Below are positions 1,619-20,760 of a DNA stretch of 64,000 bases, in pieces. Under the pieces are notes generated by a model that was not told where the DNA came from, searched no databases, and saw only the letters and a list, made by a program, of their open reading frames with translations. The DNA is from Mucilaginibacter auburnensis (GTDB taxonomy: Bacteria > Bacteroidota > Bacteroidia > Sphingobacteriales > Sphingobacteriaceae). The DNA lies in the NCBI RefSeq assembly GCF_002797815.1, contig NZ_PGFJ01000001.1, forward strand, positions 2,294,001-2,358,000. Direction: 5' to 3'. A program made the translations under genes and the position numbers. Every line of letters begins with the position of its first letter. Position 1 is the stretch's first letter.

Positions 1619-1847
1619 ACGCTTTACTATTGCAAAGTTGCAAGTCGATAGCCTATTAAATAAATATCCTCAGGTTGTTGCAAATATTACCAATCAAAGC
1701 GTAACGTTAAAGGGTTGTATTTCCGCTGCGAAACGTGCTTCGCTTCAGCAAGATGTGCGATGGCAGATACCTGGCACCGCAAAGGATAGCACTTCCGTTA
1801 TACTTAATAGGTATAAACCGCAAAGCGTAAAAATACTCGTTTGTTAA
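1611..1847 (+). pseudogene. Possible BON-domain fragment
   Basis: A short open frame without a convincing start reads like part of a BON domain: a helix (LLNKYPQVVANI) followed by a strand-turn-strand with SVTLKGCIS. BON domains occur in periplasmic or membrane-associated proteins. There is no initiating ATG, no signal peptide and no second half of the domain. It abuts the decayed response regulator, so I read the whole 1.27-1.85 kb stretch as a scar. The assignment is tentative. Confidence 0.3.
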
Positions 1848-1861
1848 ATTGTGAAAGCCAA

Positions 1862-4120
1862 ATGCCGCGCTCTTATGTTAACCGTTTCGTACCAAATGTA
1901 CTTCCTATGTCTACAATCACCTCCTTATGGGCCTTAGCTGCCATAAAAAAGTTGACGGATGCTTCAGATAGTTTGCATCAGCAGACCCAGGGCGGCTATA
2001 ATTTTGAAATCAAATTAATTGATGATTCCCTATGGGTATTGACTGGTTTTTACGAGCGAAACAAAATAGCCTTTCGCACGGCATATTTACCACACGGCTT
2101 TGATGATGTTAAGATAACTGCTAAGGATGAAACTGGTGTTTCTGTAAAATTAATAGCTGCGATAGGCGAATTTGTTGTCGATATAAAGTGGCCGCAACCC
2201 GATGAGGCCATATTACGATATACTGTATCGCTAAAAGCAAAAGCCGACTTTTTTGTTCCTTATTCACCAAGGGATATCTTAATATTTGGGAACGCAGAGC
2301 CGGAAGGTGAGATACATATCTCCCAAACCGGTACACGCTCCGGACTGCTTTATGGCTCATTAAAGAAGCCAGGTTCAGGCACTTTTTTATACTTCCAGAA
2401 TTTAACAGCGCTTGCTGATTACAATACCGACACAGAAAGCTCTGTTGGAGGAATTGTTGGCGGCCTATGGCCGGAATTGGGATTAAGCCTTCCGCCTACC
2501 TCAGATAAGCCATTGCAAAAAGGTAAAACATATATACTTAGCGATGCATTTGTTGTTTTAGATGACAAAAGCCCTGCAGACCAATTCGACATTGCTAAGG
2601 GTTTTTTAGAAACACTGGCTAAAGTGTACCTGCTATTGCCACGACCCGAAACGCCTTACCAGGATTATTTGGATGTATTGCCCAAAGCGCTGCATGATAT
2701 AGAGACCAACAAAGGTTGCTGGTCATACCACAGCGGTAGGGCTTATTTAAATGCTTACCTCTGCGACTATTACACCCCACCCGAAATTATGGTGCAGTTA
2801 GCCGTTTTACTACCTGTGCAGGATTACATGCGATGGAGTGGCGAGACCTGCGCTTTAGAAAAGGAGATACTTGATGGTTTATCTGCTTTTTATGACGAAA
2901 AAATAGGTACAGTAATGCGCTGGCTCCCATCTGCAGAGGACATGCTTGACAAATCTGAAGAGCAGAAAATACCTAAAGTTATGGATGCATGGTATCTGCA
3001 TCACCCTTTGCTTAATCTGGCGCGTTTGGCAGAAGGCGGTAATAAGTTAGCCAAAGAGTTGTTGCTAAACTCAGTTGATTACGCAATTAAGGTAGCTCAT
3101 CATTTTAACTATTGCTGGCCGGTTTTTTACAACATGGAAACGCTGGAGGTAATAAAAGCGGAAACCAAAGAAGGGGCGGGCGGTGAAAAGGATGTAGCGG
3201 GCCTTTATGCGCACGTAATGTTGCAGGTATGGGAGTTAACCAAAGACAAGAAATTTTTTCGAGAGGCAGAAAAAGCGGCGCAATCTATGCAGCAGCATGG
3301 TTTTAATGTGTTTTACCAGGCTAACAATACCATGTTCTCTGCTAAAGCCATGATACTGCTTTACAAGGAAACAAAAAAAGAGCTTTACCGCAATTTGTCC
3401 TACCTGTTTTTGGCCAACATATTTAAAAATGTAGCGTTGTGGGAGTGTGAGTATGGATTTGGTAAAAACTTTCCGACTTTTTTTCAATTGTTTCCATTGG
3501 ACGACGCGCCTTACACTGCAGTATACGAAGAGCAGGAATCTTTCTCGGGAGTACATGAGTTTTTAAATTATGCTAATGGCGTAGAGCTACTGCCATCCGT
3601 ACGCTTGTTGCTGGCAGAGTTTGTAAAACACTCTATTAACCGCATGATGTATTACTATCCGCCTATGTTACCGGAAGACATGATGGTTAAGGACGTAAAA
3701 ACAGGAGAATTGGACCCTAAACTATGGGTGGCACTGGAAGATATTCACGACGGATGGGAACAATCTGGCAGCGTAGGACAGGAAGTTTATGGCGCAGGTT
3801 TATGCTTTGGTATAGTGCCCAGACAATACATGCGGGTTCCTGTAAAAAATTTTATAATTTTTGTGGATTACCCCGTTATTAACCAAACCACCAAAGGCAA
3901 CTCATTTAGTTTTGATGTAGAAGGCGACAGCAGGCTAACCTGCCGTATGAAGATATTAAAGCAGGGTAACAAGCGTTTGCCGGCTCTGAAAATAAATATA
4001 GAGAATGACATAGATCAGCTTGAAATTAACAAACTGAAAGCTGTTAAAGACGGCGCAGAATATATTATTCATGGCGGCCAGAAGATTTCGGTGAGCTGGA
4101 ATGGACCAGCCAATAATTGA
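1862..4120 (+). CDS. Large conserved-looking protein of unknown function, possibly (alpha/alpha)-toroid
   Basis: This 752-aa protein has no signal peptide and no membrane segment. I chose ATG 1862 because the frame opens only 21 bases earlier at a poor TTG and because an ATG at 1907 would cut into the ordered-looking VNRFVPNVL segment. The first 240 residues are strand-rich. Residues about 250-600 are mainly amphipathic helices with repeated aromatic and acidic patches, as in six-hairpin glycosidase folds. The last 110 residues are again strand-rich. I cannot point to a catalytic motif, so a carbohydrate-active role is only inference. It stands alone, with a terminator about 200 bases downstream. 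Confidence 0.75.
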   Translation: MPRSYVNRFVPNVLPMSTITSLWALAAIKKLTDASDSLHQQTQGGYNFEIKLIDDSLWVLTGFYERNKIAFRTAYLPHGFDDVKITAKDETGVSVKLIAAIGEFVVDIKWPQPDEAILRYTVSLKAKADFFVPYSPRDILIFGNAEPEGEIHISQTGTRSGLLYGSLKKPGSGTFLYFQNLTALADYNTDTESSVGGIVGGLWPELGLSLPPTSDKPLQKGKTYILSDAFVVLDDKSPADQFDIAKGFLETLAKVYLLLPRPETPYQDYLDVLPKALHDIETNKGCWSYHSGRAYLNAYLCDYYTPPEIMVQLAVLLPVQDYMRWSGETCALEKEILDGLSAFYDEKIGTVMRWLPSAEDMLDKSEEQKIPKVMDAWYLHHPLLNLARLAEGGNKLAKELLLNSVDYAIKVAHHFNYCWPVFYNMETLEVIKAETKEGAGGEKDVAGLYAHVMLQVWELTKDKKFFREAEKAAQSMQQHGFNVFYQANNTMFSAKAMILLYKETKKELYRNLSYLFLANIFKNVALWECEYGFGKNFPTFFQLFPLDDAPYTAVYEEQESFSGVHEFLNYANGVELLPSVRLLLAEFVKHSINRMMYYYPPMLPEDMMVKDVKTGELDPKLWVALEDIHDGWEQSGSVGQEVYGAGLCFGIVPRQYMRVPVKNFIIFVDYPVINQTTKGNSFSFDVEGDSRLTCRMKILKQGNKRLPALKINIENDIDQLEINKLKAVKDGAEYIIHGGQKISVSWNGPANN

Positions 4121-11672: not shown

Positions 11673-12668
11673 TTATAATGAACCTCCCGGGACAAGCACA
11701 GCATCAGCAATTAACGTGCGTGCAAACAAACTACCTGACAGGCAGGACATCATTCGGTTAAAAGCCAGCTTGCCCAACTTATAACCTGAGGTTTCTACAT
11801 AAGTTATTTCCGGATAGTATAAGCCGGGTAAGTAACCATCGCTAATGGCAATTAAACCAATATCATCAGGAAATCTTAAGCCAGAACGTTGTATGCTACG
11901 CATAACGCCGGTAAGTATATCATCACTCATAGAAAAAATAGCATCGGGGCGTCTCCTGGCTTTCATTGCCTTTTGTACTGCTGTAGCGGCTTCCTGCGGG
12001 TTAGCAGCGTGAATAATAGTGTATTTTGCTGAGGCGTTATGTTCACTCATATAAGCTGTAAAAGCCAACATACGTATCTGCGTTATAGATAAATGCGCAT
12101 CACCGAAAATAGCCAGGATATTTTTTTTATTCTTTTTAAGTAGTTCGGCAGCGGCCAGATGGGTAGCTTGTTCATCAGCCACACAAACCTTATTGCAGGC
12201 CTCAAAGGCAGGCACCTTGTCGCAAAAGATAACAGGGATATTTTGCTCATCCATTTTCAGCATTTCTTTTATGTCCTCTGTTTCGGCAGTAACAGATATA
12301 AATACACCGGCCACCCGCGCGAAGCGGCAGCGCTTAACATTATCTCGCTCAATGGCCTGGTCGTTACCAGATTGCAGGATGATGAGCGAATAGCCGTATC
12401 GCCTCGCTTCTTCTTCTAAAGAGGCGATGAATGACAGGTAGAAGTGATTGGATATATCCGGCAGTATCACCCCAAACTCCTTGCTGTTGTTGGTACGCAA
12501 ACTAATAGCATAAGCGTTTGGCTCATATTCCAGCATTTGCGCAAGTTCCTGTACTTTACGGCGAGTGGTCTCAGAAATATCAGGATGATCTTTAAGCGCC
12601 CTTGATACAGTAGAGATGCTGATATTTAGCATCTCAGAGATGCGCTTTAAGGTTACTTGGGGTTTCAT
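11673..12668 (-). CDS. LacI family transcriptional regulator of the adjacent sugar locus
   Basis: A 331-aa LacI/GalR protein. The N-terminal helix-turn-helix reads VTLKRISEMLNISISTVSRAL and the hinge ends near residue 60. The rest is the periplasmic-binding-protein-like sugar sensor, with the usual FGVILPDISNHFY opening and DIGLIAISDG near residue 275. It is divergent from the TonB receptor gene, with three tandem 12-bp operator repeats between them. It most likely represses the receptor-fusion-transporter operon and itself until a sugar is bound. It converges with the histidine kinase gene, 75 bases apart. Confidence 0.92.
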   Translation of the reverse strand: MKPQVTLKRISEMLNISISTVSRALKDHPDISETTRRKVQELAQMLEYEPNAYAISLRTNNSKEFGVILPDISNHFYLSFIASLEEEARRYGYSLIILQSGNDQAIERDNVKRCRFARVAGVFISVTAETEDIKEMLKMDEQNIPVIFCDKVPAFEACNKVCVADEQATHLAAAELLKKNKKNILAIFGDAHLSITQIRMLAFTAYMSEHNASAKYTIIHAANPQEAATAVQKAMKARRRPDAIFSMSDDILTGVMRSIQRSGLRFPDDIGLIAISDGYLPGLYYPEITYVETSGYKLGKLAFNRMMSCLSGSLFARTLIADAVLVPGGSL

Positions 12669-12711
12669 CTTGGTTTAAAAATTGAATGAAGATAACTATT
12701 TTTTCAACAAC

Positions 12712-12747
12712 AAACGTTTTCGCAAACATTTGCGGAAACGTTTGCGC
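12712..12747. promoter_or_regulatory. Three tandem 12-bp LacI-type operator repeats
   Basis: Three consecutive 12-mers lie in the divergent lacI/TonB promoter region: AAACGTTTTCGC, AAACATTTGCGG and AAACGTTTGCGC. Each contains an AAAC-G/A-TTT palindrome core, and the three centres are exactly 12 bp apart. The core resembles the central part of many LacI/GalR family sites. They lie about 44 bases upstream of the TAACTTTG -7 element of the receptor gene. Confidence 0.65.
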
Positions 12748-12790
12748 CGCGTCACCTCGTAAAATAGCGACTATTGATATATGAGCCCGA

Positions 12791-12798
12791 TAACTTTG
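12791..12798 (+). promoter_or_regulatory. Bacteroidota-type -7 element (TAACTTTG) for the TonB receptor operon
   Basis: TAACTTTG fits the Bacteroidota -7 consensus TAnnTTTG and lies 31 bases before the receptor ATG. A -33 TTG at the ideal distance is not obvious; the nearest is 14 bases upstream, closer than usual. Confidence 0.5.
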
Positions 12799-12829
12799 AC
12801 TTAACAATTATAACAACCTAATTTTAATT

Positions 12830-15460
12830 ATGAGAAAGCTACTATTGGCAGCCTTCCTGCTGTTTGCCGGAACTGCCGTTTTTGCCCAGCAGTCTGTTTC
12901 TGTTAAAGGCACAGTTACCGATAAAAGTAACCAACCACTACCGGGCGCAACCGTACAATGTTTAACCGTACCAGGCGGCACGGCTACTGATGTAAACGGC
13001 AAATTTACCCTCAACAACTTACCGGCTTCTAATCAGTTGAAACTACGTGTAACTTATACCGGTTATACATCAGTTGAGCGGATAGTAGATGCTTCGGCAG
13101 GCGGTATAGATACCTTAAAAATAGTACTGAGTAATACTGATGCTTTGTCATTAACAGAAGTGATTGTAACAGCTTCAACAGGCTCCGGCAACAGGTTAAC
13201 CAGCAGCCTTTCAACCAGCAGCCTTAAAAGCGCCGATCTGGAAAAAGCCGCTCCACGTACCACTGCCGAGATCTTTCGTTCAATTCCGGGTGTGCGTTCT
13301 GAGGCAACAGGCGGCGAGGGTAATGCCAATATAACCGTACGTGGTGTGCCATTATCATCGGGCGGTTCAAAATACCTGCAATTACAGGAAGATGGTTTAC
13401 CTGTGTTACAATTTGGCGATATAGCCTTTGCTACCGCAGATATATTTTTACGGGCCGACCAAACGCTAAGCCGAATTGAGGCTGTAAGAGGCGGTTCGGC
13501 TTCAACTATGGCGACTAACTCACCTGCGGGTATCATTAACTTCATCAGCAAAACCGGCGCTACCGAGGGCGGTACAGTAGCCACAACTGTTGGCTTAGAT
13601 TATCAAAACTTCCGCACTGATTTTAACTATGGCGCGCCTATTGGCAACGGATTGAGCTTTAACATTGGTGGTTTTTATCGTCAGGGACAAGGCCCGCGTA
13701 CAGCAGGTTTTTTAGCCAACAACGGCGGACAGATCAAGGCTAACCTTACCAAGCAATTTAACGGAGGTTATGTAAGAGTTTACTTTAAATTATTAGATGA
13801 CCGCGCTGCGGCCTACATGCCAATGCCTGTACAGGTAACAGGTTCTAATGATAACCCCACTTACACGTCTCTGCCAACCTTCAATATTAATCATGGTGCG
13901 TTGCAAACCCCTTACATTTTGCAAACCCAGGGTCTTGGCCCCAATGGCGGCCCTTACACAAGTCAGGTTAGCGATGGTATGCATCCATTATCAAAAACAA
14001 TAGGCAGCGAAATTCAGTTTGATCTGGGCGACCGCTGGACTTTGGATAACCGCAACCGCGCCGCTTTTAACTCCGGAGAATTTATCGCGCCATTTCCTGC
14101 CTCGGTAGGTTCTACAAGCGCAATGCTCAACCAGATAGGTACTGCAACAGGCCGCGTGCTTACCGGCGCAACCGTAACCAACGCTGTAACCGGTCAGGCA
14201 TATACCGGTAGCCAGGCTATGATCATCCATATGTTTGATGCCAAGCTGAATAACTTTAACAATTTTATTAATGATTTTAAATTGAGGAAAGACTTTGACA
14301 AAGCTAAGTTGACCTTCGGTTATTATAAATCAAGCCAAAACATTAATATGGATTGGTTATTCAATTCCTACCTCACCAGTCTTGACGGTGAAAGTGCTGT
14401 TCCGCTTAACATAACTACAGCAGGTGGTACTTCATTGAGTAACAATGGTCAATATGCATACGGTGCGCCTGTTTGGGGTAATCTGCACCGTAATTATAAT
14501 GTTAACTATGATATTTCCGCACCTTATGCAGGCATCAACCTTGACCTTTCATCAAAATTAAAATTTGATGGTAGCTTAAGATATGACATGGGCAGGGTAA
14601 GAGGCAATTATTCAGGCAATGTGCAACGCAGCTATGATGTAAATAATGACGGTACGATAAGCGCCAATGAGCAAAGCGTATCTGCCATTAATTTTAGCGA
14701 TGCCAAGCCTGTTAATTACAATTATAAGTATTTATCGTTCTCTGCCGGTTTAAATTATTTGATAGATCCGTCAAATGCGGTATTTGCACGCTATAGCTCT
14801 GGTGGTACAGCACAAGCCGACCGCATACTATTCACTTCAAGTATATTTGCTAATGGCGGTGCGGCAACGGCTTACAATCGTATTGATCAGGGCGAGTTAG
14901 GCTGGAAATTAAAATATGATAAAGGAGGATTATTCCTTACCGGCTTTTACGCGCACACCAAAGAAGCCGGCGAATTTGAAGTTACTACACAACGCATCAT
15001 TCAAAACAGCTACCGCGCTTTTGGTGTGGAGTTAGAAGGTGTTACTAATGTAAGCAGCAATTTTGATGTTCGTTACAGCGCAACCTTTACTCACGCCCGT
15101 ATAGTTGATGGCCAGTACAAAGGCAACAAGCCGCGTCGTCAGGCTGATCTGATCTATAACATTGTACCTACTTACAAAGCCGGAGCTTTGTCATTTGGTG
15201 CAAGTGTTTTAGGTACTACCGCATCTTTCACACAAGATGTTAATCAGTTAAAACTGCCTGCTTATGTATATGTAAATCCATTCTTTAACTATCGCTTTGG
15301 TAAAAAATGGTCAGCATCATTAAATGCCAATAACGTTTTCAATGCCATGGGCTTTACAGAGGCGGAAGAAGCAGCTATAACAGGCGGACAAAGTAATATT
15401 GTACGCGCCCGTTCAATTACCGGCCGTACCATTTCAACAACCGTGATGTTCAACTTCTAA
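12830..15460 (+). CDS. TonB-dependent receptor (sugar uptake, outer membrane)
   Basis: An 876-aa outer-membrane receptor. Residues 1-20 are a signal peptide ending AVFAQ. A carboxypeptidase-regulatory-like beta-sandwich spans about 24-105 (SVKGTVTDKSNQPLPGATV), a plug domain about 125-245 (TAEIFRSIPGVRSEA, then IEAVRGGSAS), and the rest is a 22-strand barrel ending in the typical terminal Phe (TTVMFNF). It lacks the SusC-specific features and has no SusD partner, so it acts as a stand-alone TonB-driven porin for a small sugar. Gene order with a LacI regulator, a glycosidase-kinase fusion and a disaccharide-type permease supports an oligosaccharide such as sucrose as ligand, which is inference. 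Confidence 0.93.
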   Translation: MRKLLLAAFLLFAGTAVFAQQSVSVKGTVTDKSNQPLPGATVQCLTVPGGTATDVNGKFTLNNLPASNQLKLRVTYTGYTSVERIVDASAGGIDTLKIVLSNTDALSLTEVIVTASTGSGNRLTSSLSTSSLKSADLEKAAPRTTAEIFRSIPGVRSEATGGEGNANITVRGVPLSSGGSKYLQLQEDGLPVLQFGDIAFATADIFLRADQTLSRIEAVRGGSASTMATNSPAGIINFISKTGATEGGTVATTVGLDYQNFRTDFNYGAPIGNGLSFNIGGFYRQGQGPRTAGFLANNGGQIKANLTKQFNGGYVRVYFKLLDDRAAAYMPMPVQVTGSNDNPTYTSLPTFNINHGALQTPYILQTQGLGPNGGPYTSQVSDGMHPLSKTIGSEIQFDLGDRWTLDNRNRAAFNSGEFIAPFPASVGSTSAMLNQIGTATGRVLTGATVTNAVTGQAYTGSQAMIIHMFDAKLNNFNNFINDFKLRKDFDKAKLTFGYYKSSQNINMDWLFNSYLTSLDGESAVPLNITTAGGTSLSNNGQYAYGAPVWGNLHRNYNVNYDISAPYAGINLDLSSKLKFDGSLRYDMGRVRGNYSGNVQRSYDVNNDGTISANEQSVSAINFSDAKPVNYNYKYLSFSAGLNYLIDPSNAVFARYSSGGTAQADRILFTSSIFANGGAATAYNRIDQGELGWKLKYDKGGLFLTGFYAHTKEAGEFEVTTQRIIQNSYRAFGVELEGVTNVSSNFDVRYSATFTHARIVDGQYKGNKPRRQADLIYNIVPTYKAGALSFGASVLGTTASFTQDVNQLKLPAYVYVNPFFNYRFGKKWSASLNANNVFNAMGFTEAEEAAITGGQSNIVRARSITGRTISTTVMFNF

Positions 15461-15471
15461 AATTAATAACC

Positions 15472-15495
15472 GTTAGGGCGGCACGCCGCCCTAAC
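15472..15495 (+). promoter_or_regulatory. Perfect 10-bp stem-loop between receptor and fusion gene
   Basis: GTTAGGGCGG pairs perfectly with CCGCCCTAAC around a CACG loop, 12 bases after the receptor stop. No T tract follows, so it is not a classical terminator. It may protect the receptor message from 3' decay or lower read-through into the downstream genes. Confidence 0.6.
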
Positions 15496-15512
15496 CTATT
15501 GCCTTTTGAATT

Positions 15513-17375
15513 ATGAAAGCGACAGAAAGCAAACTTACAGCTGGTGCAGTTGAGGTGATAGAGAAAGCTGCGTCTATGGGATACTTACTGGCATCCGGGC
15601 AGCAAATAGATAACTATCGTCAGGTTTGGGCACGAGATAGTGCGGTAACAATCCTGGCTATATTGGCAAGCGATCTTAAAAACTTGTTTACTACTGCTGC
15701 CAACACCCTAAAATTATTACAGCAACAAGCCGATAGCAAGGGGCAGATACCTTCAAACGTACAGGTTAACGAGGCTGGTGAAATTGAAAAAGTGAGTTTT
15801 GGCGGACTGGTAGGTCGCACCGATTCCAGTTTCTGGTGGTTGATAGCCAGCCTCACTTACCTTAAAAAAGTTGAAGATGTTGAGTTTGCATCGAAAGTTG
15901 AGGCACATGCGTTCAAGATATTTGATCTGGCGGAGGCGTGGGAGTTTAACGGCAAACAACTGATGTACCTACCCATGAGTGGTAACTGGGCTGACGAATA
16001 TGTTACACATGGCTACGTGCTGTATGATCAACTACTACGTTATTGGGCATTGCAATTGGCGGCCGAAAGATTGAAGAATAATGAGCTATCAAAGAAAGCA
16101 ACTGTGGTAAAGGCGGCTATAAAACAGCACTTTTTGTTTGAACAGCCGCTTGATAGTAGCTTGTATCCGATAGCGCAACGTCAAAAAATTGGTAAGTATA
16201 ACTTGTCTGATAATTTTATCGCTTCCTTTTCGCCGGGCGATAGGGTAGAACGTTACGATGCCTGGAGTATAGCTTTATTGCTATTACTGCAAATACCCTC
16301 AGAAGATAACCGCGACCGCCTGGCCGGTGTTATTAAAGATACTTTTGATCAATTTAATAGCAAAGGTATACCTGCATTCTGGCCAGAAATAATGCCAAAG
16401 GATAGTGCCTATGAGGCTTTGAGCAATAATTATAGTTATCGCTTTAAAAATAAACCGGGACACTTTCATAACGGTGGTATATGGCCGGTGGCCAATGGTT
16501 TTTTGGTTACGGCACTTAATTTTTGCGGTAAAACAGATATTGCCACGCAATTATTCAACGCCATGCAAAGCGCTTTAGAAATAGCAGACGAAAGCAGGCC
16601 TTTTACAGAGTATTTTGAGTTGTACAGCGGTGAGCCGTGTGGCACTCCCGAACTTTGCTTTAGTGCGTCGGGTTATTTGATGGCTGCAACCTCTCAGACA
16701 AACATGGCAGCGGTGAACAGGTTATTGCCCGGATATCTGCAGAAAACTTACAAACTTCAACAAAAGTACAGCGAGTTATGCGCAGCAATATTGGCTGTGC
16801 TTCCCGTTGTGGGTAAAAATGTTATGGTGATATCAATAGCCGGGCAATCGGGCAGTGGTAAAACCACATTGGCCTATGCGCTAAAGCGTGAACTGCAGCA
16901 ACTTGGCGTAAAAACTATTTTATTGCATCAGGACGACTATTTTAAGCTTCCGCCTAAACAAAACCACATGGCCCGCGAGAAAGATTTTGGCCATATCGGC
17001 TACGATGAGGTGCGGTTAGAAGTTTTAGATGAGCACATCAGACAGATCAAGTTGCAACAGCACTCAACAATCACTATTCCACGTATGAACTGGGTAAAGG
17101 ATGTGGAGGAACAAATGGTAATTGATATTAAAGACGCGCAGGTGGTTTTAGTTGAAGGTACCTATACATCATTGTTAAGCCAACCCCGGTTTAAAATATT
17201 CTTTAATGCTGATTATCGCGAAACACGCGAAAGCAGGGCAGGCAGAGGCAGAGATAAAGACAATGATTTTATTGAGCAGGTACTACAAAAAGAAAGCGGA
17301 CTGATAAGTATGCACGAAGATTTGGCCAACCTGGTATTAAACAACCAACTCGAAGTGGTAACTTACCGCGAGTGA
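15513..17375 (+). CDS. Glycosidase (neutral invertase-like) fused to a uridine-kinase-like P-loop kinase
   Basis: A 620-aa cytosolic protein (no signal peptide) with two enzymes in one uninterrupted frame. Residues about 1-395 form an (alpha/alpha)6 glycosidase: VWARDS at 38-43, GRTDSSFWWLI at 101-111, FSPGDRVERYDAW at 239-251, and HNGGIWPVANGF at 319-330. These segments resemble GH100 neutral invertases and amylo-1,6-glucosidase-like proteins. After a roughly 40-residue helical linker, residues 437-620 are a phosphoribulokinase/uridine kinase fold: Walker A GQSGSGKT at 444-451, HQDDYFKLPP at 472-481, Walker B-like VVLVEGTY at 544-551, and the Arg-rich RESRAGRGRDK lid. Its place between a TonB receptor and a disaccharide permease suggests it splits an imported sugar and phosphorylates a product. 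The true substrate of each half is unknown. Confidence 0.82.
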   Translation: MKATESKLTAGAVEVIEKAASMGYLLASGQQIDNYRQVWARDSAVTILAILASDLKNLFTTAANTLKLLQQQADSKGQIPSNVQVNEAGEIEKVSFGGLVGRTDSSFWWLIASLTYLKKVEDVEFASKVEAHAFKIFDLAEAWEFNGKQLMYLPMSGNWADEYVTHGYVLYDQLLRYWALQLAAERLKNNELSKKATVVKAAIKQHFLFEQPLDSSLYPIAQRQKIGKYNLSDNFIASFSPGDRVERYDAWSIALLLLLQIPSEDNRDRLAGVIKDTFDQFNSKGIPAFWPEIMPKDSAYEALSNNYSYRFKNKPGHFHNGGIWPVANGFLVTALNFCGKTDIATQLFNAMQSALEIADESRPFTEYFELYSGEPCGTPELCFSASGYLMAATSQTNMAAVNRLLPGYLQKTYKLQQKYSELCAAILAVLPVVGKNVMVISIAGQSGSGKTTLAYALKRELQQLGVKTILLHQDDYFKLPPKQNHMAREKDFGHIGYDEVRLEVLDEHIRQIKLQQHSTITIPRMNWVKDVEEQMVIDIKDAQVVLVEGTYTSLLSQPRFKIFFNADYRETRESRAGRGRDKDNDFIEQVLQKESGLISMHEDLANLVLNNQLEVVTYRE

Positions 17376-17397
17376 ACCTTTAACCTGATATAACATC

Positions 17398-18681
17398 ATG
17401 AAAATATTTAAAACCAGGATGTCTTTCTGGCAGATCATCAACATGAATTTTGGTTTTCTGGGTTTACAATACAGCTTTGGCTTACAGCAGGCCAACATGA
17501 GCCCGATATATTCCTATCTTGGTGCTGAGGAGAAGAACTTGCCTTACCTATGGTTGGCGGGGCCCGTAACGGGGCTTGTTTTACAGCCAATCGTAGGGGC
17601 CTTGAGCGACAACACCGTTACCAAATGGGGTAGGAGAACGCCTTATTTTTTGATCGGTGCCATTTTATGCAGCACTTGTTTGCTAATTATGCCGCACAGC
17701 ACATCGGTATGGATGGCAGCCAGTACCTTATGGATATTAGATGCCGCTAACAATATTACGCAGGAACCGTACCGTGCGTTCGTTAGTGATAAATTAGATG
17801 AAAGTCAGCATGCTACAGGGTTTTTAACCCAAAGCGCTTTTACAGGTTTGGGGCAAACACTCTCTTACCTTACACCCAGTATTTTAATAGGCTTGGGCGT
17901 AAGTAAATTCGCGGTGAATGATCGTAATATTCCTGTAACTACCATTATTTCATTCAGTATTGGTGCATTCATTTCCATAACAGCTATTTTGTGGACGCTG
18001 AAAACAACTAAGGAAGCGCCGGTAGAACGCACCGAAAATAATAGCGGGCCGTTCTCTGTGAAAATGATATTTGGAGAGATAGCATCGGCAGTAAAAAACA
18101 TGCCGCGCACCATGAAACTCATGATACCCATGATGTTTTTAAGCTGGTATGCCATGTTTATTTACTGGATCTACATTACCAAATGCCTTTCAAATACTGT
18201 GTTTTCCAACGCCGGTATTACTTCCTTTCGCATGGCTGATATATTAACGGGACAAATAGGCGCTTACTATAATTTCGTTGCATTCGCGTCGGCGTTTTTA
18301 TTGGTTAAACTGGCTCAAAAATGGGGAGCAAAGGCAGTACATGCCACCTGTTTATTGTTGGCGGGTATAGGTTTATTTACTCTGCCGTGGTTTCATACTC
18401 AGGCATTGGTATTTATCCCAATAACCGGCCTCGGCTTATGTTGGGCCAGCATGATGGGCTGTCCGTATATAATATTAGCTGGTAGCATACCCGCTGAGCG
18501 CACCGGTATTTATATGGGAGTATTTAACATGTTTATTGTTATACCTATGCTGTTGCAAAATGTTACTATGCCGCTTTATTACGAAAGCTGGCTGGGCGGT
18601 GATCCGGTAAACGCTATAATGCTGGCGGGTACTTTAATGCTGCTTGCCGCAGGCGCTACGCTGTTTATCAAAACTCAATAA
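17398..18681 (+). CDS. SLC45-type MFS sugar transporter
   Basis: A 427-aa inner-membrane protein with about 12 hydrophobic helices. The N-terminal half has YSFGLQQANMSPIY in helix 1 and the loop GALSDNTVTKWGRRTPYF between helices 2 and 3, the Arg-Arg-Thr-Pro-Tyr signature of sucrose/maltose:H+ symporters (SLC45/GPH-like, including SuxC of Xanthomonas). It follows the fusion gene by 22 bases and is surely in the same operon. Expected role: carries the intact disaccharide from periplasm to cytosol, where the fused glycosidase awaits it. Confidence 0.88.
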   Translation: MKIFKTRMSFWQIINMNFGFLGLQYSFGLQQANMSPIYSYLGAEEKNLPYLWLAGPVTGLVLQPIVGALSDNTVTKWGRRTPYFLIGAILCSTCLLIMPHSTSVWMAASTLWILDAANNITQEPYRAFVSDKLDESQHATGFLTQSAFTGLGQTLSYLTPSILIGLGVSKFAVNDRNIPVTTIISFSIGAFISITAILWTLKTTKEAPVERTENNSGPFSVKMIFGEIASAVKNMPRTMKLMIPMMFLSWYAMFIYWIYITKCLSNTVFSNAGITSFRMADILTGQIGAYYNFVAFASAFLLVKLAQKWGAKAVHATCLLLAGIGLFTLPWFHTQALVFIPITGLGLCWASMMGCPYIILAGSIPAERTGIYMGVFNMFIVIPMLLQNVTMPLYYESWLGGDPVNAIMLAGTLMLLAAGATLFIKTQ

Positions 18682-18973: not shown

Positions 18974-20760
18974 ATGAAAGTTATTATAGCCGAAAAACCC
19001 TCTGTAGGGCGCGAGATCGCCAAAGTATTCGGTGCTACCACTAAACATGACGGTTATATGGAAGGCGAAGGTTACACCTTTACCTGGGCTTTCGGGCACC
19101 TGTTGCAACTTGCCGCGCCACAGGAATATGGCTATCATGGCTGGAGTGTGCAGAACCTGCCCATGCTGCCACCTAAGTTCAAACTGTGCCTGCGAAAAAA
19201 AGATGGCAAGGATGATCCGGGTGCCAGAAAACAGCTGGACATCATCCGTAAGTTATTTGACGAGGCGACCGAGATCATTGTCGCTACGGATGCCGGAAGG
19301 GAAGGCGAGCTTATTTTTCGCTATATTTATTATTTTCTGAAATGCAAAAAGCCTTTTAAGTGACTGTGGATTTCTTCCCAGACAGACGAAGCTATCAAAG
19401 AAGGTTTCCGGAACTTAAAACCTGGGAGCGATTACGATACCCTCTTTAATTCTGCTCATTGCCGTTCGCAGTCCGATTGGCTGGTAGGTATGAACGCCAC
19501 ACAGGCCCTGAGCCTGGCATCGGGCAACAGAGGGGTTTTGTCGCTCGGCCGGGTACAGACCCCGACACTGGCGATGATCTGCGCGCGCTACCTGGACAAC
19601 AAAAATTTCGTACCCGAGCTGTACTACCAGGTAGCCATCCAGCCGGATAAAGATGGGCAGCCTTTTCGGGCGATCTCTGAAAAAAACTATTCAAGCAAAG
19701 AAGAGGCGCAGGCAGTGCTGGATCAGGTAGAGGCAACCGGGAACATCCTGTGTGTAGCTGCCAAACCGCGTAAAGAGCCGCCGCCCTTGTTACATGACCT
19801 GAGTAGTTTACAGCAAGAGGCTAACAAACGCAAAGGGTTTACGGCAGACCAGACCCTCGGCCTGCTGCAAAACTTATACGAGGGCAAACTAATCACTTAC
19901 CCCCGTACCGGCAGCCGCTACATCGGTGACGATGTATTTGCCGAAGTACCCGGCCTGATCAATAAACTCAGCGATCATGCCACATTCGGGAAACAAGCCC
20001 TGTTACTCGCTGAATCCCAATTGAACAAACGAAGTGTTAATGCTAAAAAAGTAACGGATCACCACGCCCTGCTGACAACCGGAATAGCGCCGTATCACCC
20101 GACCCCAGACCAGCAGGCGGTATATGATATGGTCGCGGGGCGTATGCTGGAAGCATTTAACCAGGATTGCATTAAAGAAATTACCAGGATCACTGTATTT
20201 TCCGGATCTAAATTTATCGCGAGCGGCACCGTTATTCAAACACCAGGTTGGCGCGCGGTATTCAATGACAAAGATGAGGAAAAGCAGGATGGGGAAAACG
20301 CTACCTTGCCTAAAGTGCTACAAGGGGAGGACCTGCCCATCCTGAATAAAGCTGTGCTGGAGAAACAAACCAAACCAAAGCCGCTTTACAACGAGGCAAG
20401 TTTATTAAAAGCCCTGGAGACCGCCGGTAAAGAAATTGAAGACGGCGAACTACGCGAAGCCATGAAGGAAAGCGGATTGGGTACCCCAGCTACCCGCGCC
20501 GCCATCATCGAAACGCTGATCACCCGTAAATACATCCTGCGCGAAAAGAAAAACCTGGTGCCCACAGCAACCGGCCTGTCCGTTTACAATGTTGTAAAAC
20601 ACCAGCGCATCGCCCAAGCCGAACTGACCGGCAATTGGGAAAAAAGGCTCGAAGAGATTCGCGGCGGTGCCTCCGTCAACGCCTTTCAAGAAGAGATCAA
20701 AGCCTATACCGCCTGATCACCCAGGAACTGCTGCAATCCGGAAAAACTATGAAAACTTAA
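18974..20760 (+). pseudogene. topB: DNA topoisomerase III, broken by an in-frame stop and a 3' frameshift
   Basis: The gene encodes a type IA topoisomerase of the kind carried by Bacteroidota conjugative elements. The toprim domain is complete (IIAEKPSVGREIA at the start, VATDAGREGELIFR near residue 108-121), and the active-site segment LITYPRTGSRYI carries catalytic Tyr at about residue 309 (bases 19898-19900). A TGA at 19361-19363 (codon 130, where an Arg codon CGA would fit) interrupts an otherwise continuous frame. The frame then runs to 20716, while a further family-like tail (LITQELLQSGKT) is one base out of frame up to 20760. The C-terminal zinc-finger part is missing. Composition is richer in GC than its neighbours. 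The 259-codon piece after the TGA could not restart as a working enzyme. Confidence 0.8.

Follow-up and report, generated by a model that had tools for sequence, protein, structure and literature searches.

We propose, with moderate confidence, that a single gene of Mucilaginibacter auburnensis encodes a protein in which a cytoplasmic sucrose hydrolase is joined to a hexose kinase of the P-loop type, most likely a fructokinase occupying the position of the PfkB kinase found in most related clusters. The gene is located in a stretch of 64,000 nucleotides (hereafter, the window), within a conserved cluster of the sucrose type that comprises a LacI-family regulator, a TonB-dependent receptor, the fusion and a SUC1-like MFS transporter (Table 1).

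Table 1. Features of the fusion gene and its cluster in the window.
Feature	Positions	Strand	Evidence
LacI-family regulator, divergent from the cluster	11673-12668	-	Pfam LacI, Peripla_BP; kept at relatives' clusters
TonB-dependent outer-membrane receptor	12830-15460	+	Pfam CarbopepD_reg_2, Plug, TonB_dep_Rec_b-barrel; kept at relatives' clusters
Fusion gene, GH100-type glycosidase and P-loop kinase, 620 aa	15513-17375	+	Open frame, Pfam, AlphaFold2, Foldseek
GH100-type domain, residues 1-395 (approx.)	15513-16697	+	PF12899; best structural matches GH100
D161, aligned with InvA D188	15993-15995	+	Alignment; invariant in every GH row
E366, aligned with InvA E414	16608-16610	+	Alignment; invariant in every GH row
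P-loop kinase domain, residues 403-620, N-terminal helix included	16719-17372	+	PF00485, alignment, model, Foldseek
Walker A, GQSGSGKT, residues 444-451	16842-16865	+	Sequence, alignment
D474, invariant in GH-linked kinases, their nearest relatives and Udk	16932-16934	+	Alignment
Arg-rich lid, R575, R578, R580	17235-17252	+	Alignment; unchanged across 30 GH-linked kinases
MFS transporter related to sucrose transporters	17398-18681	+	PDB SUC1 8bb6, TIGR01301

One uninterrupted frame encodes two domains

The fusion gene runs from its ATG start to its stop over 620 codons without interruption. Profile searches place the Pfam families Glyco_hydro_100 and PRK (phosphoribulokinase/uridine kinase family) in the one chain, both past their cut-offs: PF12899 is matched with 52.7 bits (cut-off 23.6; E 3.8e-14, and 1.1e-14 for the N-terminal part) and PF00485 with 39.4 bits (cut-off 22; E 7.3e-10). 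A whole-chain AlphaFold2 model, built from 59 aligned sequences, has a mean pLDDT of 91.7 and a pTM of 0.87, and the kinase modelled alone has a pLDDT of 91.2. Open frame, profiles and model agree with a preliminary description of this DNA as coding for one 620-residue protein of two domains. The same description had placed a short linker before a complete kinase at residues 437-620, which held in part: the kinase is intact, but it starts before residue 437. Since its N-terminal helix (residues ~403-429 in the fusion) is also found in the alignment of separate kinase homologues, almost no linker is left between the domains. The protein is taken to be cytoplasmic because its N-terminus, as judged by eye, does not have the look of a signal peptide.

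The glycosidase domain belongs with GH100 invertases

A sequence search of the PDB with the first half of the protein retrieved Anabaena Alr0819 (InvB), InvA and Arabidopsis CINV1. When the model of the fusion was compared with the PDB using Foldseek, the best 28 matches were all GH100 invertases, headed by sucrose-bound InvB; Pfam and structure are thus in line with the (alpha/alpha)6 glycosidase resembling GH100 neutral invertases that had been recognized before. D161 and E366 align with the catalytic acid (D188) and catalytic base (E414) of InvA. We regard hydrolysis of sucrose by this domain as highly probable. At another locus (positions 7621-9702 of L064, genome G274), a sucrose-phosphate phosphatase domain is fused to a distant GH100 domain, which offers a weak extra link to sucrose.

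The kinase has the uridine kinase fold but is not a uridine kinase

With the second half of the protein, the PDB sequence search returned 1rz3 (possible uridine kinase) and uridine kinases. Foldseek matches of the kinase-alone model were 1rz3, human UCK2, a bacterial uridine kinase, pantothenate kinase and phosphoribulokinase, together with 3c8u, a putative structure of the FrcK type. 1rz3 and UCK2 were also matched by the kinase part of the whole-chain model. Pfam found no PfkB match in the fusion protein, and ribokinase-like proteins have a different fold. The catalytic motifs of the kinase are intact in the alignment: Walker A was read at the residues previously assigned to it, the Arg-rich lid that had also been described is invariant across the family, and D474 is likely to be the catalytic base, by analogy with uridine kinases.

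An ordinary uridine kinase that became fused by accident would account for the annotation-level likeness to udk and for the fold shared with UCK2. However, the domain reaches 51.6 bits with the curated udk model, whose cut-off is 220.3; the Udk motif NFDHP is missing from the alignment, where invariant LPPxxNHxxR and VGxxEV take its place; and the genome has a separate Udk-like gene (C1:1986264) that scores 142 bits, short of the udk cut-off like its counterpart in the related genome G194. Score, motif and separate gene rule a uridine kinase out and, as the kinase accompanies the GH domain in two phyla, we give such an accidental fusion next to no probability. The suggestion of the preliminary description that the substrate may be a hexose rather than uridine is probable, its main support being the gene context in the PfkB slot.

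The GH-linked kinases branch apart from canonical Udk in a tree with several long branches; nearest to them are kinases from small genomes of family f38. These kinases (L065-L069, L227-L250) often occur as a pair in one genome, in the vicinity of NrfD and sirohaem-type genes but with no GH gene, and as a guide to the substrate they were uninformative. Strong matches to the kinase in a 395-genome sample of the phylum all lie beside a GH homologue.

The glycosidase is paired with either of two kinases and was fused repeatedly

Relatives were taken as even draws from one phylum (395 genomes) and as the best 80 of 552 in a named collection, and the neighbouring genes were labelled with HMMs built from the GH clusters. 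In the 395 genomes the GH part is mostly a separate gene. Among 97 distinct GH genes, whose partner frequencies are not unbiased because sampling favours near relatives, 63 have a PfkB partner (62 adjacent, one fused), 30 have a P-loop kinase partner (27 adjacent, three fused, namely, the window, L050 and L070), and four have neither, including L146, which ends at a contig edge; none of the 97 has both kinase types in its cluster. The P-loop type is found in named Chryseobacterium, Epilithonimonas, Halpernia and Kaistella, and the PfkB type in Flavobacterium, Pedobacter, Nonlabens, Leeuwenhoekiella and Belliella. The best solved relative of the PfkB partners is the fructokinase 3hj6 (E 1.2e-43), and they fall short of the NCBIfam fructokinase cut-off. 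In another phylum, relatives of the transporter, the GH and the P-loop kinase occur together, in the same arrangement, on a plasmid of Gemmatirosa kalamazoonensis. A single change on the GH tree divides the partner types (SH-aLRT 98 in a 31-row set; a quick search, with the deep order uncertain).

The same fusion adjoins the same transporter in a genome of the same class (G037; L002/L050), and it is present in a Chitinophagaceae MAG (L070) with ~50% identity to the protein of the window; it was found in none of 36 genomes of the window's own genus. L050 is fused, unlike L153, its sister with an identical genus code. In a 719-aa protein at positions 6528-8687 of L061 (genome G286), this GH is fused instead to a kinase of the PfkB family. 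Fusion arose at least three times (in the window together with L070, in L050, and in L061 with PfkB), and at least twice for the GH and P-loop kinase pair alone. That the GH domain was repeatedly fused with either kinase supports a functional link between the two activities.

The preliminary description had called for a survey of the fusion in Bacteroidota and had considered it an assembly artefact should homologues always be separate genes. The fusion is present in three genomes, that of the window included, and its presence in other genomes rules out both an artefact and a chance read-through; yet 27 of the 30 loci of the P-loop type consist of separate, adjacent genes. We found no paper on a GH100 and P-loop kinase pairing in the open-licence literature; the fusion is not unique to the genome of the window. 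Most of the homologues are encoded as two proteins, so the domains need not be physically joined, and sugar may be channelled between them but does not have to be. The fusion itself may bring a benefit.

The surrounding cluster points to sucrose

The best solved relative of the MFS transporter is the plant sucrose transporter SUC1 (8bb6, E 2e-23), and its score with TIGR01301 (GPH_sucrose), 98 bits, is short of the cut-off of 511. The LacI-family gene matches NCBIfam regulators below cut-off. Median identity of the transporters is 53% across the two cluster types, and 55% and 53% within them; 107 of their positions are jointly conserved and none is differently conserved between the types. For the TonB receptor, these figures are 187 and three. 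In the GH domain, 47 positions are at least 93% identical in both types and ten differ, the catalytic pair not among them. Transporters from different cluster types are thus no less alike than those of one type, which makes it probable that both types import the same sugar, and the relationship to SUC1 together with GH100 membership argues for sucrose. Other glucosides may be taken up alongside, because genes for trehalase or kojibiose hydrolase lie near some clusters of both types.

Several further observations concern the window itself. A perfect 10-bp GC-rich hairpin between the TonB receptor and the fusion (15472-15495) could affect the relative expression of these genes. The nearest relative of the LacI protein is from Pedobacter (58%, L121), and the GH, kinase and MFS sequences are closest to those of the Chitinophagaceae MAG L070 (MFS 70%), so a mosaic origin of 11673-18681 is possible; the GC content of the region is unremarkable. 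Downstream, a DNA topoisomerase-like frame (18974-20716, + strand) has one in-frame stop at 19361-19363, both halves being otherwise open in the same frame, and it may be a pseudogene or reflect a sequencing error. A 759-aa frame at 1841-4117 (+ strand) has no Pfam match at E 1e-6.

Proposed pathway and the substrate of the kinase

In the pathway that we propose, sucrose would enter via the TonB receptor and the SUC1-like transporter and would be split in the cytoplasm into glucose and fructose by the GH100-type domain, with D161 as acid and E366 as base. The P-loop kinase, filling the slot of the PfkB fructokinase, would then phosphorylate one of the two products at the expense of ATP, fructose being the likeliest, while glucose would pass to a separate kinase, the polyphosphate-glucokinase-like ROK protein encoded elsewhere; the LacI protein would probably repress the cluster. 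That the kinase acts on a product of the GH domain is likely. As to which product, we lean towards fructose from gene context, because the kinase holds the slot of a fructokinase-like PfkB gene.

The kinase complement of the genome does not decide the sugar. It includes another fructokinase-like PfkB protein (L155, best PDB match 2qhp), three further PfkB proteins (a heptose kinase, a KDG-type kinase and one weakly matching ribokinase) and a single ROK protein; no PF02685 glucokinase was found in it. Both cluster types include genomes with L155-like genes, two genomes of the P-loop type having ROK fructokinase-like genes instead, and it is this spread that deprives the complement of a verdict. 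Since this genome and others of the P-loop type have such genes, the kinase is not the sole fructokinase candidate, and the idea that it must be the only fructokinase of its genome is unsupported.

The same sucrose enzyme could carry a glucokinase or a broad hexokinase, fructose being left to L155. Both products of sucrose need phosphorylation, a fructokinase-like PfkB is available elsewhere, and a genome lacking PF02685 has only its one ROK protein, of the polyphosphate-glucokinase type, for glucose. However, the other occupants of the slot are PfkB proteins nearest to fructokinases, and L155-like genes also occur in genomes with PfkB-type clusters, so that a second fructokinase need not be redundant where L155 is present; we consider this reading unlikely. 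An accessory or regulatory kinase, tied to sugar uptake rather than to hexose metabolism, has its precedent in Sinorhizobium FrcK, a P-loop kinase of unknown substrate whose gene accompanies that of a fructose transporter and whose mutation lowers fructose uptake (PMC10433430), and the match to 3c8u is in its favour. But in Sinorhizobium a true fructokinase gene lies less than 2 kb from that of FrcK (PMC10433430), whereas the kinase types studied here never share a cluster. On the evidence of the same paper, we also reject FrcK as a proven P-loop fructokinase. Moreover, the FrcK-like PRK09270 models match weakly (25.3 bits, cut-off 227; 24.2 bits, cut-off 250), and an accessory role leaves both the fusion to a hydrolase and the exchange with PfkB unexplained, which makes it improbable.

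Glycerate kinases exist within the PRK/uridine kinase superfamily, and clusters of the P-loop type might act on another glucoside, for example glucosylglycerate, with the kinase phosphorylating a non-sugar product. The GH domain is indeed distantly similar to glucosylglycerate and mannosylglycerate hydrolases, and the ten positions that differ between types, as well as the neighbouring trehalase and kojibiose hydrolase genes, would fit. Nonetheless, its structure is far nearer to GH100 (Foldseek E 2.5e-16, against 8e-9 for mannosylglycerate hydrolase) and the transporter is SUC1-like with no type-specific positions; on these two comparisons, we rank glucosylglycerate with a glycerate kinase low, at an even smaller probability than an accessory role.

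Beyond this gene, we find it fairly probable that these kinases form a new fructokinase or hexokinase family of the PRK/uridine kinase fold, in which phosphorylation of free hexose evolved independently, which stands in for PfkB in the sucrose clusters of both Bacteroidota and Gemmatimonadota, and whose members were joined to the invertase at least twice. In a 2005 classification of kinases, fructokinases are confined to two groups, ribokinase-like and RNase H-like, and the P-loop kinases include neither hexokinase nor glucokinase nor fructokinase (PMC1079889); we found no description of a hexose kinase of the PRK/uridine kinase fold in the open-licence literature. If true, a P-loop fructokinase would represent an independent origin of this activity, annotations of the 'uridine kinase' type in many Bacteroidota, including culturable Chryseobacterium, would need correcting, and sucrose use by Bacteroidota with P-loop kinase clusters would be easier to explain.

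Comparison with known systems

With the GH100 alkaline/neutral invertases (Anabaena InvA, 5gop, and InvB, 5z74; Arabidopsis CINV, 6ttj), the GH domain has in common its fold, its Pfam family, the two catalytic residues and, likely, the cytoplasmic hydrolysis of sucrose. In contrast, it is only ~20% identical to the solved members, sits in a Bacteroidota uptake cluster and is fused to a kinase. The kinase, in turn, shares fold, Walker A, the D474 aspartate and the Arg lid with Udk, UCK2 and phosphoribulokinase (PF00485), but differs from Udk in having its own two motifs in place of NFDHP and in being linked to a glycosidase. FrcK of Sinorhizobium meliloti (PRK09270) likewise belongs to this superfamily of P-loop kinases and is encoded in an operon for sugar uptake; unlike the kinase of the window, however, it does not replace a fructokinase, is not paired with an invertase and is distant in sequence. 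Finally, sucrose clusters with a PfkB fructokinase of the ScrK type have the same set of functions, namely, a LacI regulator, a sucrose permease, a cytoplasmic hydrolase and a kinase for its product, whereas in the window a P-loop kinase stands in place of PfkB and is fused to the hydrolase.
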